This document shows positions 2,285-10,349 of a stretch of DNA of 24,956 nt, piece after piece. The DNA lies in the IMG/VR virus record IMGVR_UViG_3300024264_000162, positions 1 through 24,956 of that record. One strand, written 5' to 3'. A program made the position numbers and the translations under genes. Origin of the DNA: a virus. Within the stretch, counting starts at the first letter, position 1; each line of letters starts with the position of its first letter. The notes beneath the pieces are model-generated. The model was given only the letters and a program-made list of their open reading frames with translations, was not told where the DNA came from and made no database searches.

Positions 2285-2300
2285 TTGGGACAGTTTGAGA

Positions 2301-2343
2301 AGTGTCACACTGACCCTTACAGGGTCTTTTTTTATTGTATAAT
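2301..2343 (+). promoter_or_regulatory. promoter module A: AGTGTCACA + stem-loop + TATAAT
   Basis: The upstream element AGTGTCACA (2301-2309) lies 37 nt before the -10 TATAAT (2338-2343), with the terminator stem-loop between them. There is no good -35 hexamer at normal spacing. Same layout as the modules at 4093, 4599, 7630 and 12187-15718. It drives the methyltransferase-like gene whose ATG is at 2363. Confidence 0.7.
2312..2333 (+). terminator. rho-independent terminator after cp12
   Basis: GACCC (2312-2316), loop TTACA, GGGTC (2322-2326), then seven T residues (2327-2333). This is a textbook intrinsic terminator 28 nt after the cp12 stop. It is also the stem-loop part of the promoter that follows: the -10 TATAAT starts only 4 nt after the T-run, so termination of one unit and initiation of the next share the same 43 bases. 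Confidence 0.9.
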
Positions 2344-2362
2344 TGTAGAAAGAAATTTTGTA

Positions 2363-3736
2363 ATGTCTAACGCACTGGTTGATGTAATTCGTGAGAATGA
2401 ACCTTTTTATTCTGATGTGACTATGACTGAGAAAAAGAATCGAATCTATTGTCACCAATTTGAAAGTTGGATTGAACTAATTGCTCTTGGTTTGAGGGAC
2501 TTTTGTTTTTATATTGGTCAAACTGAAGCAGGTAGGGGATGGAAGGTTGTAGGTGAAAAACTGATTCGATTTTATGATGGTGATTATTCCAAATGTCCAG
2601 ACAAACCTAAACTTTATCGTTATTGGGATGTGCATCCAGATCTTAAAGACCATGAGATTAGGGAAGTTATGCGAAAATATGGTTTTATTAAAAATCCTTA
2701 TGGTGGATCTCCAGAGCTAGTATCTAATGCTAATATTAAGGATCTTGACACAGCACTCTTTATTCTTGGTAATGAGATTCAGAAATTGAATGATTATTAC
2801 TATAACTTTGAGAAGATGTTTGGCATTAGTCCTAGCATAGAGCAGAAGAAGGCAAAGAAACGTGAGGAGGATATGTTTCGCATCCCACAACGTTTTGCAG
2901 TATATGATATGTGCGATCAGTTGCAACATTTGCCGAAAGATGCTATGATTTATATTCCAAAGGATGCTTATGGTCGGTTCTGTGACTACCTTGTTCAGCA
3001 AGGTTTCAGTAACATATATACTGAAAAAGACTATGAGTATTTCTATGGATGTAAAGAACTGTTGGGGAATAAATTTGATGACATCAATCTTATTACCGAA
3101 GAAGAGTTTTTTGATATGAAGAAAAAGTTTGATGTAGTTATTGGTAACTATCCTTACGGTAATGGTGGTAATCTTGCTATCGATTTTCTGGCAAAGTCTT
3201 CTGAAACACTGAAAGATGATGGTATGATTCTTCAGATTGTGCCTATTTCTTTGAGAAAGAATGGTAGTCAGAACAAGATTATCAAACGTAATCCATATCT
3301 TGAGTGTGTGAGTGACGTTGACTGTGAGAAGGGCACTTTCCCTGTTGGTATTCATGCTGCTATTCAAGAGTGGCGTATTGGTGATAATCATAGGCAGAAA
3401 ATTGAGATTATTACTAATCACCCAGACTTTGATTTCCTTGATTATAAGGATGTCGTGACTGGTAAAGTGCGGGTAGATCTTGTTATTATTCGATCTGGCA
3501 ATGCTGGTAGAATGATTAGGTCTGAGTTTGAAAAGTATCTGCCTAAGAAAGGTGAACAACTTGATCATTTCTTTATACAGGCAAAGAATGAAAATGTAGT
3601 AGAAACTTTGATATCATTGGAGGAAGAACTTGTTAGAATTGGCGCAAACACAAATGGAAGAAACCACGTCTCAAAAGGTGAAATCATCGAAGAATACCAA
3701 AAACAAACACAATCAGGAGGTGGGATCTTCGATTGA
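2363..3736 (+). CDS. adenine-methyltransferase-like protein, motif IV part (NYPY)
   Basis: 457 aa from ATG 2363. I chose this start because the upstream in-frame codons run through the terminator and promoter. Residues 256-266 read FDVVIGNYPYG, the catalytic motif IV of N6-adenine methyltransferases with Tyr replacing the first Pro of NPPY. The following KDDGMILQIVPISLR (284-298) fits the next core strands, and 300-420 may be a target-recognition region. A degenerate motif-I-like stretch (MIYIPKDAYGRFCDYL, 195-210) precedes the catalytic motif but lacks the usual glycines. The C-terminus overlaps the next gene, which has a perfect motif I. The two could form one enzyme; alternatively this is an Eco57I/EcoRI-type methylase with a diverged cofactor site. 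Confidence 0.7.
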   Translation: MSNALVDVIRENEPFYSDVTMTEKKNRIYCHQFESWIELIALGLRDFCFYIGQTEAGRGWKVVGEKLIRFYDGDYSKCPDKPKLYRYWDVHPDLKDHEIREVMRKYGFIKNPYGGSPELVSNANIKDLDTALFILGNEIQKLNDYYYNFEKMFGISPSIEQKKAKKREEDMFRIPQRFAVYDMCDQLQHLPKDAMIYIPKDAYGRFCDYLVQQGFSNIYTEKDYEYFYGCKELLGNKFDDINLITEEEFFDMKKKFDVVIGNYPYGNGGNLAIDFLAKSSETLKDDGMILQIVPISLRKNGSQNKIIKRNPYLECVSDVDCEKGTFPVGIHAAIQEWRIGDNHRQKIEIITNHPDFDFLDYKDVVTGKVRVDLVIIRSGNAGRMIRSEFEKYLPKKGEQLDHFFIQAKNENVVETLISLEEELVRIGANTNGRNHVSKGEIIEEYQKQTQSGGGIFD

Positions 3737-5535: not shown

Positions 5536-5879
5536 ATGAATACTTTCCACGACATAAAATTGATGTGGATATTATTCATAAAGGACTGAAACGTGATGGT
5601 GTTGTTGGGTATTGTGATGTGATCGGTGGATATTATCGACCAAGGCATTTTCTGATTGAACTTCAGGCACGTATGTCTGAGGAAATGTATATAAAAACTC
5701 TTTTTCATGAACTGACCCATCTGGCACAGTGGGTAGGTGGTTCTCTGCGGTTTCATCATGGAAAAATGTGTTATTCTCAAGAACCGGTCGAAAATTATGA
5801 TTATTGGGATCAACCACATGAAATTGAGGCACGGGAGGAAGAAGTAAGGCTATATGATCGGTGGTTAAATGAGAAATAG
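5460..5879 (+). CDS. zincin-like metallopeptidase domain protein (HELTH)
   Basis: 139 aa. LFHELTHLAQW (81-91) has the HExxH zinc motif with His83, Glu84 and His87, and the later PHEIEAREEE (119-128) supplies a plausible third ligand Glu, the arrangement of small SprT/minigluzincin-like peptidases. Before the motif, RPRHFLIELQARMSEEMYIKT fits the strand and helix leading into the active site. No signal peptide, so it would act in the cytoplasm, cleaving an unknown substrate. Only the motif supports enzyme activity. The gene ends directly at promoter module D. Confidence 0.75.
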   Translation: MHSTIFHSGYGYSKIICEDVTSWFLNEYFPRHKIDVDIIHKGLKRDGVVGYCDVIGGYYRPRHFLIELQARMSEEMYIKTLFHELTHLAQWVGGSLRFHHGKMCYSQEPVENYDYWDQPHEIEAREEEVRLYDRWLNEK

Positions 5880-5881
5880 AG

Positions 5882-5940
5882 TGTGCCAGTTGATTGAACT
5901 GTCCACTGACCTCCACAGGGTTTCCTGACCCTGCTATAAT
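5882..5940 (+). promoter_or_regulatory. promoter module D
   Basis: TATAAT at 5935-5940, directly preceded by a perfect 6-bp stem CAGGGT/ACCCTG. ACTGTCCACTGACC (from 5898) occupies the place of the AGTGTCACA element, 37 nt upstream of the -10. The leader is ACAAAGTAATCAAGGGAAC. The first 18 bases from 5882 (TGTGCCAGTTGATTGAAC) are identical to 7286-7303, where they are the end of the Dam-like gene. Confidence 0.72.
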
Positions 5941-5965
5941 AACAAAGTAATCAAGGGAACGACTC

Positions 5966-6148
5966 ATGACCACCTTCGACTTTGAAACCGAGTACCACTG
6001 GGGTGCTCTCATGGTCAAACTGGTTCCCATGTTTGCCATGGATGTTTACAAAGCATCCGATGATGAGTTAGTATGGGTCTTTGATGTGAACAACCCCAAA
6101 GATGGTTATCATGTCCCTGCTCGCAATCTTTCTACTTATTCTTATTGA
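5966..6148 (+). CDS. small phage protein (60 aa)
   Basis: Starts MTTFDFETEYHWGALMVKLV. Beta-type pattern with DDELVWVFDVNNPKDGYHVPARNLS, resembling a small SH3-like or dUTPase-size fold but not assignable. First gene after promoter D and directly upstream of the MutH-like gene, with which it is probably co-transcribed (stop 6146-6148, next ATG 6151). Confidence 0.75.
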   Translation: MTTFDFETEYHWGALMVKLVPMFAMDVYKASDDELVWVFDVNNPKDGYHVPARNLSTYSY

Positions 6149-6150
6149 TT

Positions 6151-6795
6151 ATGTCTAGGATTAAAAAAGCAATCAAAAAAGTTTCTAAAGCAGAAGGATT
6201 CCAAAAACTTGGTGTCGAAGAGGTTGAAAACAAACTTAACACTTTTGATTACTCTCAACTTCCCAAACCTGGCAAGAATAAAGGTGATCGTGGGCAACTC
6301 TTTGAGACTGCTTTGGGTATTCCAAACGGTTCTGATTTGACTGACTTGATTGATGGTGAACTAAAGTCTTTTACTAAAGGTGAGACAATTAAAGTCACCA
6401 TGCTAAAGCACTGTCTTGACGAAATTGCTTCTAGCGTTGAATTTTATGATAGTAAAGTTTATCAGAAGTTAAAACAAACTATTTACGTTGGTTTTGATCG
6501 TGGTGGAAAGTTTCTTAAATCAAAAACTATCAATGAACAAAACGATTTTGATCATTATCAACAATTGGCAGAAGATTTTGGTTATATTGCAGTAAATGTA
6601 AAAAAAGCAATCGTTAATAAAGAAACTCTTCATACTATCACTGGACCTAACGGATTACTGCAAATACGTACAAACGCATCTAAGAATAAAAAGACTGGAA
6701 AATACACACCACTGTGCTATAATGGTGTTGAGTTGAAAGACAAATATATGGCATTCTATCTCCTTGCAGACTTCGGAAAATCAATTACAAAATGA
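6151..6795 (+). CDS. MutH/Sau3AI-family DNA endonuclease
   Basis: 214 aa. NKGDRGQLFETALG (43-56) followed by SDLTDLIDGELKSF (61-74) reproduces the MutH/Sau3AI active site: Glu52 in GQLFE, an Asp among the DLTDLID residues, and Glu70-x-Lys72 in GELK, the metal-binding set of this restriction-endonuclease fold. The later LLQIRTNASKN (169-179) and MAFYLLADF near the C-terminus match conserved family features. Known members cut at GATC and are controlled by adenine or cytosine methylation. ATG 6151 is preferred to a TTG at 6145. The stop overlaps the ATG of a Dam-type methylase, suggesting the pair works together: nicking or cutting unmodified host or rival DNA while phage DNA is protected. The substrate site is inference. 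Confidence 0.78.
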   Translation: MSRIKKAIKKVSKAEGFQKLGVEEVENKLNTFDYSQLPKPGKNKGDRGQLFETALGIPNGSDLTDLIDGELKSFTKGETIKVTMLKHCLDEIASSVEFYDSKVYQKLKQTIYVGFDRGGKFLKSKTINEQNDFDHYQQLAEDFGYIAVNVKKAIVNKETLHTITGPNGLLQIRTNASKNKKTGKYTPLCYNGVELKDKYMAFYLLADFGKSITK

Positions 6796-7301
6796 CATCA
6801 AACACACTTCAAGTTCTAACAGCAAGCACAGGTAATCGTAAAGATACGTGGAATACTCCTGCGGAATTTGTGGGTGATGTTATTAAGTTTTTTGATGGAC
6901 AGATTGATACTGACCCGTGTTGTAATGATGTAAACAATCCAAACGTGCCTGCCAAAGTTCTTTATACTGAAGAAACGGATGGTTTAAAACATCCATGGTT
7001 TGGTAAAGTTTTTGTGAATCATCCATATTCTGCTAGTAAAAAATGGATTCCCTATGCTGCTGCCCAGTATGAAAATGGAAATGCGAAAGAAATGGTTCTT
7101 CTCATTAAGTTGGACGTTTCTACCAAATGGTGGAGATCTATCACCAAATATCCATGGATAGGAGTCAATAGACGGTTAAGATTCGGTGCTGCCAAAAGTG
7201 CAGCACCATTTCAGTCTGCTATCATATACCTTGGGACTGATCTTGACCGATTTAAACATGCTTTTGGTAAGTACGGTCAATTGTATGTGCCAGTTGATTG
7301 A
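6792..7301 (+). CDS. dam: phage Dam-type DNA N6-adenine methyltransferase
   Basis: 169 aa. DTWNTPAEFVGDVIKFF (18-34), then DTDPCCND (39-46), LYTEETDGLKHPWFGKVFVNHPYS (57-80): the pattern of the phage N-6-adenine methyltransferase family (DxWxTP, DxDPC, DGL.xPW, NPPY). The catalytic motif reads NHPY (76-79) rather than NPPY. It would transfer a methyl group from S-adenosylmethionine to adenine, commonly in GATC for this family. ATGA overlap with the MutH-like nuclease gene gives tight co-translation. The last codons (VPVD, stop) are part of an 18-bp sequence repeated in the non-coding promoter D, so the regulatory module E begins inside this gene. Confidence 0.85.
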   Translation: MTSNTLQVLTASTGNRKDTWNTPAEFVGDVIKFFDGQIDTDPCCNDVNNPNVPAKVLYTEETDGLKHPWFGKVFVNHPYSASKKWIPYAAAQYENGNAKEMVLLIKLDVSTKWWRSITKYPWIGVNRRLRFGAAKSAAPFQSAIIYLGTDLDRFKHAFGKYGQLYVPVD

Positions 7302-7345
7302 ACCGTCCACCAACCGACCACAGAGCAGGGCAGACCTGCTATAAT
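7286..7345 (+). promoter_or_regulatory. promoter module E, starting inside the dam-like gene
   Basis: Stem AGCAGG/CCTGCT with loop GCAGA leads straight into TATAAT at 7340-7345, and the leader ACAAAGTAATCAAGGGAAC is the same as in D. The block ACCGTCCACCAACC sits 38 nt before the -10. Between the conserved ends of D and E the stem sequences differ but pairing is kept. Confidence 0.72.
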
Positions 7346-7374
7346 TACAAAGTAATCAAGGGAACACCACTCAC

Positions 7375-9798: not shown

Positions 9799-9842
9799 AA
9801 CTGACCACTGAACCCCCACAGGGCACACAGATGCCTTATACT
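9799..9842 (+). promoter_or_regulatory. promoter module H
   Basis: ACTGACCACTGAACCC (from 9800) replaces the upstream element and lies 37 nt before TATACT (9837-9842). AGGGCA/TGCCTT with loop CACAGA forms a 6-bp stem ending at the -10, as in modules D and E. Recognising this promoter moves the start of the pentapeptide gene to ATG 9870, because ATG 9831 would lie upstream of the transcript start. Confidence 0.6.
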
Positions 9843-9869
9843 CATTATATACCAAACCAGGATTACCAA

Positions 9870-10349
9870 ATGATAGTCAACGGATACGAAATCAAACCAG
9901 GAGATATTCTTGAGGGTGCTGACCTTAAGGGTGCTATTCTTGAGGGAGCTGATCTAAGTTATGCTGATCTAAGTTATGCTGACCTAAGAGGTGCTATTCT
10001 TGAGGGTGCTGACCTTAAGGGTGCTATTCTTGAGGGTGCTGACCTTAAGGATGCTGACCTTCGAGGTGTTGACCTAAGACGTGCTAATCTTAAGGGTGCT
10101 AATCTTGAGGGTACTAAACTTAAGGGTGCTAATCTTGAGGGTACTAAACTTAAGGGTGCTAATCTTGAGGGTGCCAAACTTAGGAATGCTGACCTTCGAG
10201 GTGTTGACCTAAGACGTGCTAATCTTAAGGGTGCTAATCTTGAGGGTGCTAATCTTTGGAATGTTAACCTTAAGGGTGCTTATCTTAAGGATGCTAATCT
10301 TAAGGGTGCTAATCTTGATGGAACTATTTTAGAAGGACTTAACCTATGA
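9870..10349 (+). CDS. pentapeptide-repeat protein
   Basis: 159 aa. After [19 protein letters not shown] the protein is a continuous run of pentapeptide repeats of the A(D/N)LxG type to the C-terminus (about 28 repeats), which fold into a right-handed quadrilateral beta-helix, a shape that in some family members mimics DNA. At DNA level the repeats are nearly identical 15- and 30-bp units (CTTAAGGGTGCTAATCTTG and variants), so copy number probably changes by slippage or recombination. ATG 9870 is chosen over ATG 9831 because of promoter H and because the same 5' sequence recurs at 10346 starting with ATG. No membrane segment. The role is unknown; gyrase inhibition by some family members is a possibility only. 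Confidence 0.85.

Follow-up and report, generated by a model that had tools for sequence, protein, structure and literature searches.

The overlapping genes for a MutH-superfamily nuclease and an adenine methylase of family PF05869 (Table 1) probably form a phage-borne unit of restriction-modification type, in which the nuclease would cut unmethylated GATC and the methylase would protect the phage's own DNA, the whole being an exchangeable cassette. The sequence studied, called here the window, is the 24,956-nt virus record IMGVR_UViG_3300024264_000162. Its baseplate gene gp6 shares 98.7% identity with that of Synechococcus phage S-SKS1 (Llyrvirus, host WH7803), the closest isolate, and the alignable parts of the two show about 94-97% DNA identity, which marks the window as a fragment of a T4-like cyanophage related to S-SKS1. 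Elsewhere the window encodes a 483-aa protein (2285-3736, phrog_5172) with weak similarity to Eco57I methylase (1.1e-4) and an NYPYG motif, possibly a second DNA methylase; a protein with NUMOD3 (516-1097) that matches homing-endonuclease families of phages; and a pentapeptide-repeat protein (9831-10349; PF00805, 6e-55) whose DNA has a period of 15 nt. Between 12186 and 15746 an intergenic repeat of 72 nt occurs seven times, along with other intergenic repeats; they are promoter- or hairpin-like.

Table 1. Features of the nuclease-methylase cassette and its borders (positions in the window)
Feature	Position	Strand	Remarks
Left copy of intergenic repeat (hairpin + TATAAT promoter-like site)	5875..5960	+	
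60-aa gene (phrog_12800), just 5' of nuclease	5966..6148	+	In L007 it likewise precedes the nuclease (87% identity)
MutH-superfamily nuclease gene, phrog_15364	6151..6795	+	Intact ORF, 214 aa from ATG
Glu52 codon, counterpart of MutH Glu56	6304..6306	+	Invariant in 39 relatives; hhalign with E. coli MutH
D65-L-I-D-G-E70-L-K72, counterpart of MutH D70/E77/K79 (DEK) motif	6343..6366	+	D65, E70, K72 invariant; hhalign
Lys106 codon, counterpart of MutH Lys116	6466..6468	+	Invariant in 39 relatives; hhalign
Arg173 codon (LQIR), counterpart of MutH GATC-contact Arg184	6667..6669	+	Invariant; hhalign; role PMC10940147
Tyr203 codon (FYL), counterpart of MutH methylation-sensing Tyr212	6757..6759	+	Invariant; hhalign; role PMC3848065
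PF05869 (Dam) DNA N6-adenine methylase gene	6792..7301	+	Intact ORF, 169 aa; PF05869 match
Methylase motif IV, Asn-His-Pro-Tyr-Ser (NHPYS; usual form NPPYS)	7017..7031	+	N76-S80 invariant in 11 aligned relatives
Right copy of same hairpin/TATAAT repeat; bounds cassette	7279..7365	+	1404 bp downstream of left copy

A first-pass annotation of this DNA had taken the upstream protein for a MutH/Sau3AI-like nuclease with a GQLFE...GELK pattern, and both parts of that assignment hold. The pattern is present as GQLFE...DLIDGELKS. A Pfam search returned no family, and a PDB sequence search with the protein gave a weak MutH match alone (E 0.21), so that profiles and fold were required to place it. The NCBIfam MutH model NF003458 is matched by 39 of 39 nuclease relatives (best 1.7e-10, window protein 2.5e-4), and hhalign pairs the nuclease with E. 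coli MutH over 164 columns (probability 94, E 1.3e-7). A Foldseek search with its AF2 model (pLDDT 86) gave nine matches at E<=0.001, five chains of MutH and four of Sau3AI, and none other. Judged by these whole-domain matches of profile and predicted fold, the protein belongs to the MutH superfamily. It appears to be a relative of MutH and not the repair MutH itself, since its score of 20.2 bits lies far under the NF003458 equivalog cut-off of 243 and neither MutL (PF01119) nor MutS (PF00488) was found in the 16 phage records searched. PHROGs assigns it to phrog_15364, with function there given as unknown; a TTG at 6145 is a possible alternative start.

Residue conservation was judged on the alignment of 39 relatives, in which K44, aligned with MutH K48, is invariant along with the residues of Table 1; an editor built on MutH loses its activity with K48A, R184A and Y212S (PMC10940147). 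In MutH, Tyr212 senses the methylation state, and unmethylated sites are also cleaved, with double-strand breaks as a possible result (PMC3848065). The kept counterpart of Tyr212 suggests a nuclease blocked by methylation. Comparison with the counterpart in IMG/VR locus L007 (dN 0.073, dS 0.47) indicates purifying selection. A scan of cellular genome contigs gave a single relative, on a Rhodobacteraceae MAG contig (L171), and no bacterial source; the other genes of that contig are odd, repeat-rich and look atypical of the bacterium, and it is possibly a misbinned viral contig.

The next gene, an adenine methylase according to the same annotation, indeed matches PF05869 (Dam) at E 1.3e-15, with 57.9 bits against a Pfam gathering score of 28.1. 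In place of the usual motif IV, NPPY, its subfamily has NHPY, which is present in all 80 of the 80 methylase loci scanned; the distant Alteromonas phage PT11-V22 has NHPF, and other PF05869 members have NPPY. Because the variant is subfamily-wide and the gene is under purifying selection (dN 0.065, dS 0.24 against the counterpart in L094), the histidine is a trait of the clade and not a mark of decay in the window phage. The AF2 model of the methylase (pLDDT 62) was too poor for use.

The two reading frames share 4 bp, the ATGA overlap seen at first pass, and the same overlap is found in 19 of the 22 loci that have this methylase with a MutH-like gene directly upstream. A search for the pair in other phages, which had been proposed as a check, found relatives of the nuclease in 25 Synechococcus phage records (58-73% identity over 91% of the length) and the nuclease in at least 80 IMG/VR loci, and because of this recurrence the pair is real and not due to chance. 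A nuclease gene adjacent to a methylase gene, in a conserved pairing, is the arrangement of type II restriction-modification. The cassette is bordered by two copies of an intergenic repeat that agree at 84% in a stretch of 37 nt and at 97% in one of 31 nt, a pattern with two occurrences only in the window and an expectation of 0. With a hairpin and TATAAT at both borders, promoter-like by sequence, these repeats resemble the PeSL elements, with which the shuffling of genes among T4-like phages has been connected (PMC4503421).

The restriction-modification-like character of the pair, also put forward at first pass, is supported by the exchange of its partners. In the Synechococcus phage records inspected, the MutH-like nuclease adjoins an unrelated methylase, a D12 Dam lying upstream, with the exception of S-CAM7, where the D12 Dam is located elsewhere, away from the nuclease; in S-8S29 (L003 5110-6588) the two are joined in a single 492-codon ORF. 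L007 retains the upstream gene of 60 aa and a nuclease at 87% identity, with a D12 Dam downstream in place of the PF05869 gene. Among 78 loci that have a methylase of the window type together with upstream sequence, a MutH-like gene lies directly upstream in 22 and a PDDEXK_11 nuclease (PF20472) in 23, the latter overlapping the methylase by 4 bp in 19 of 23 cases, as the MutH-like gene does in 19 of 22; the two nucleases occur together at none of the 78. A ParB-like gene lies between in 12 of these loci, most of which have a MutH-like or PDDEXK_11 nuclease just before it, and no nuclease is nearby in 15. At L106, L113, L133 and L134 a 467-470-aa protein of no Pfam family stands directly before the methylase, in two cases after a nuclease gene. 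In S-RIM12 and S-RIM50 a PDDEXK_11 gene follows the D12 Dam, in the MutH-like gene's place; their D12 Dam had been considered as an orphan, a candidate rejected because this nuclease adjoins it. From L007, the PF05869 loci with either nuclease, and S-RIM12 and S-RIM50, it follows that all four combinations of nuclease (MutH-like, PDDEXK_11) and methylase (PF05869, D12) exist.

S-SKS1 itself (L294 3024-4455) has at the same locus a 176-aa protein (phrog_18119, no Pfam family) that overlaps a PF01555 methylase. This protein has a PD...ECK pattern (SPDF...DIECKS) and is nuclease-like by eye, and the pair has the neighbours of the window cassette, the metallopeptidase gene on one side and the downstream promoter junction on the other. 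It looks like an exchange of the whole pair, giving a third nuclease-like/methylase pair at the window's locus. This modular exchange, of either half or of the whole pair with the pairing kept, is the new part; a literature search, with subscription papers outside its scope, found no earlier account of a cyanophage pair of this kind.

The D12 Dam is found at >=60% identity in 64 cyanophage records, and the 25 MutH-like and 39 PDDEXK_11 cyanophage records do not overlap and have a union of 64. The D12 matches listed (60 of the 64) all fall in this union, whose other four members bring the count to 64, and each D12-Dam cyanophage record, judged among the matches listed, appears to have exactly one nuclease. 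Thirteen cyanophages without an EcoDam-like D12, an absence that for 6 of the 13 rests on their not being among the 64 records and not on a profile search, have neither nuclease, save for a weak, decayed trace in Syn19 (NC_015286, 24668-25021 minus; E 1.6e-4, two stops), possibly what is left of a nuclease since lost. The co-occurrence of D12 and nuclease is still striking when genera are counted, with the reservation that genomes of related phages are not independent. It bears on an alternative that we consider unlikely, namely that the methylase is the functional part, for protection against GATC nucleases of host or rivals or for regulation, with the nucleases as passengers or serving other ends. 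The 15 PF05869 loci with no nuclease nearby, the 236-kb PF05869 contig G032, in which none was found, and the frequency of orphan methylases in phages all speak for such a reading, but the nuclease is kept in the D12-Dam cyanophage records (64; among the matches listed), it is under purifying selection with every active-site residue retained, and it is tied to the methylase by the translational overlap and the S-8S29 fusion.

Since the D12 partner is close to the GATC enzymes E. coli Dam (2e-68) and M.DpnII (7e-46), GATC is its expected site, and the proposal of GATC at first pass gains support from this likeness and from the depletion of the tetranucleotide. Ratios of observed to expected GATC, from a maximal-order Markov model on samples of 20-90 kb per genome, run from 0.12 to 0.80 in 17 genomes or contigs with a nuclease and from 0.64 to 0.98 in 13 cyanophages that have neither nuclease (P=1.1e-5; 8e-5 after collapsing to genera, 6e-5 for isolates alone). 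None of 136 tetranucleotides is more depleted than GATC (mean ln ratio -0.80); GGCC comes next, at -0.28, which is not significant. CATC, AATC and GACC, each one step from GATC, are elevated in the nuclease-bearing genomes. Both nuclease families are concerned, the ratio being 0.13 in S-RIM8 (MutH-like) and 0.12 in S-RIM50 (PDDEXK_11), with ACG-2014g (PDDEXK_11) also depleted. S-CAM7, with nuclease and D12 present, is scarcely depleted (0.80), and Syn33, with neither, stands at 0.64. The window has 89 GATC sites, those cited earlier at 474, 3492 and 3724 being real, and a ratio of 0.64, a mild depletion; the statement that the phage does not avoid GATC does not hold in general, the nuclease-bearing genomes being depleted as a group.

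In PF05869-type contigs the ratios are 0.44-0.84, and PF05869 contigs in which no nuclease was found are similar (0.46-0.82); depletion there was therefore rejected as a sign of nuclease action. As no isolate has the EcoDam-like D12 and lacks a nuclease, the effects of nuclease and methylase on GATC are inseparable. The depletion, the likeness of D12 to E. coli Dam and the MutH residues together point indirectly to GATC as a site that nuclease and methylase may share; for the PF05869 enzyme, GATC is suggested by its interchangeability with the D12 Dam. Other palindromes are wholly or nearly absent from single lineages (TTAA in S-ShM2, CTAG in S-SM2, GCGC in MED4-213, and ACGT, at 0.05, in G007), as is CCGG from most of the Kyanoviridae sampled, and such losses may mark other restriction-type pressures.

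The avoidance of GATC would be unexpected for a repair mark. Methyl-directed repair or strand marking, in which the nuclease would nick hemimethylated GATC like MutH and act with host MutS and MutL in repairing phage DNA, draws on MutH being the closest structural and profile match and on the conserved Tyr212 counterpart, but MutL and MutS are absent from the 16 phage records searched, and same-place replacement by the unrelated PDDEXK_11 or by the third pair would be incompatible with a MutH-specific MutL contact; we regard this reading as decidedly unlikely. A mobile or selfish, homing-like nuclease that spares its own copy through methylation is highly improbable. The promoter-hairpin repeats bounding the cassette and the repeated exchange at one locus might speak for it, but a site of 4 bp recurs too often for homing, and the loss of GATC throughout the genome agrees with exposure of the whole genome and not of a single insertion site. 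Repeats of the PeSL kind are reported (PMC4503421, which cites Arbiol 2010 and Comeau 2014) to serve T4-like phages as points of passive recombination.

Among known systems, MutH of E. coli and H. influenzae (NF003458, TIGR02248) has in common with the phage nuclease the fold, the whole-domain alignment and counterparts of E56, D70, E77, K79, K116, Arg184 and Tyr212; the phage enzyme differs in falling far under the equivalog cut-off, in belonging to phages without MutL and MutS (16 records), and in being paired with a methylase, once by fusion. Sau3AI is its second-best fold match. GATC type II systems of the Sau3AI/DpnII class likewise have a nuclease beside a methylase, and the phage D12 partner resembles M.DpnII. 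Sau3AI is about 500 aa long and has a cytosine methylase as partner, whereas the phage nuclease is a single 214-aa domain with an adenine methylase partner and a lytic-phage carrier. The PDDEXK_11 (PF20472, phrog_6124) and Dam pairs of S-RIM12, S-RIM50 and ACG-2014b have the same locus and the same D12 partner as the MutH-like nuclease, to which PDDEXK_11, a PD-(D/E)XK nuclease annotated as hypothetical, is unrelated. Chloroviruses use adjacent nuclease/adenine methylase pairs on host DNA (PMC7019647), and marseilleviruses have a GATC restriction-modification system that probably acts on rival viruses (PMC7253447), the proposed roles being the breakdown of host DNA or the exclusion of other viruses. 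These resemble the cyanophage pair as virus-borne, adjacent nuclease and adenine methylase genes, with GATC in common in the marseilleviruses; they differ in belonging to eukaryotic viruses, and the relevant passages of the two papers report no comparable partner exchange.

From the enzyme families, the conserved residues, the overlap, the partner exchange, the D12 co-occurrence, the GATC depletion and the missing MutS and MutL, all read from sequence, we infer that the nuclease cleaves and is methyl-sensitive, that the PF05869 methylase acts on GATC, and which DNA would be the target, as follows. The MutH-superfamily nuclease would recognise GATC and cleave if the adenine is unmethylated, and the PF05869 methylase would mark the same GATC in the phage's own DNA and so protect it. 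The DNA cleaved would be the host chromosome, for nucleotide supply and take-over, or that of a co-infecting phage without the mark. The dmtA gene, encoding the GATC methylase of other cyanobacteria, is generally missing in picocyanobacteria (PMC4390886), and host GATC should for that reason be open to the nuclease; the same would apply to rival phages that have much GATC, for instance syn9 with 6.0 per kb. Loss of GATC in the carrier would fit imperfect self-protection, as for cellular restriction-modification systems, and exposure to rivals bearing the same weapon would explain it equally. The unit is an exchangeable cassette, its nuclease, its methylase or both being replaced by unrelated enzymes with the pairing retained.

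A broader view, quite possible and held tentatively, is that T4-like cyanophages keep a dedicated and rapidly exchanged restriction-modification locus, with at least three unrelated nuclease types and at least three unrelated methylase types, most combinations being aimed at GATC, swapped singly or as pairs and in some cases joined by a ParB-like third gene, that would drive genome-wide loss of the target site and act as a weapon, turned on phages infecting the same cell or on the host chromosome.

Restriction-modification usually defends a cell from phages. In the present case it appears to belong to the phages, lytic ones that infect abundant cyanobacteria of the ocean, and to be modular, leaving a genomic footprint of GATC loss that can be tested. 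Cultured carriers (S-RIM8, S-RIM50, S-RS29 and S-8S29, on Synechococcus WH7803) allow such tests. Two nuclease families now listed as hypothetical or of unknown function, phrog_15364 and phrog_6124, would gain a name, and the pair offers a route to how cyanophages degrade host DNA or exclude their rivals.
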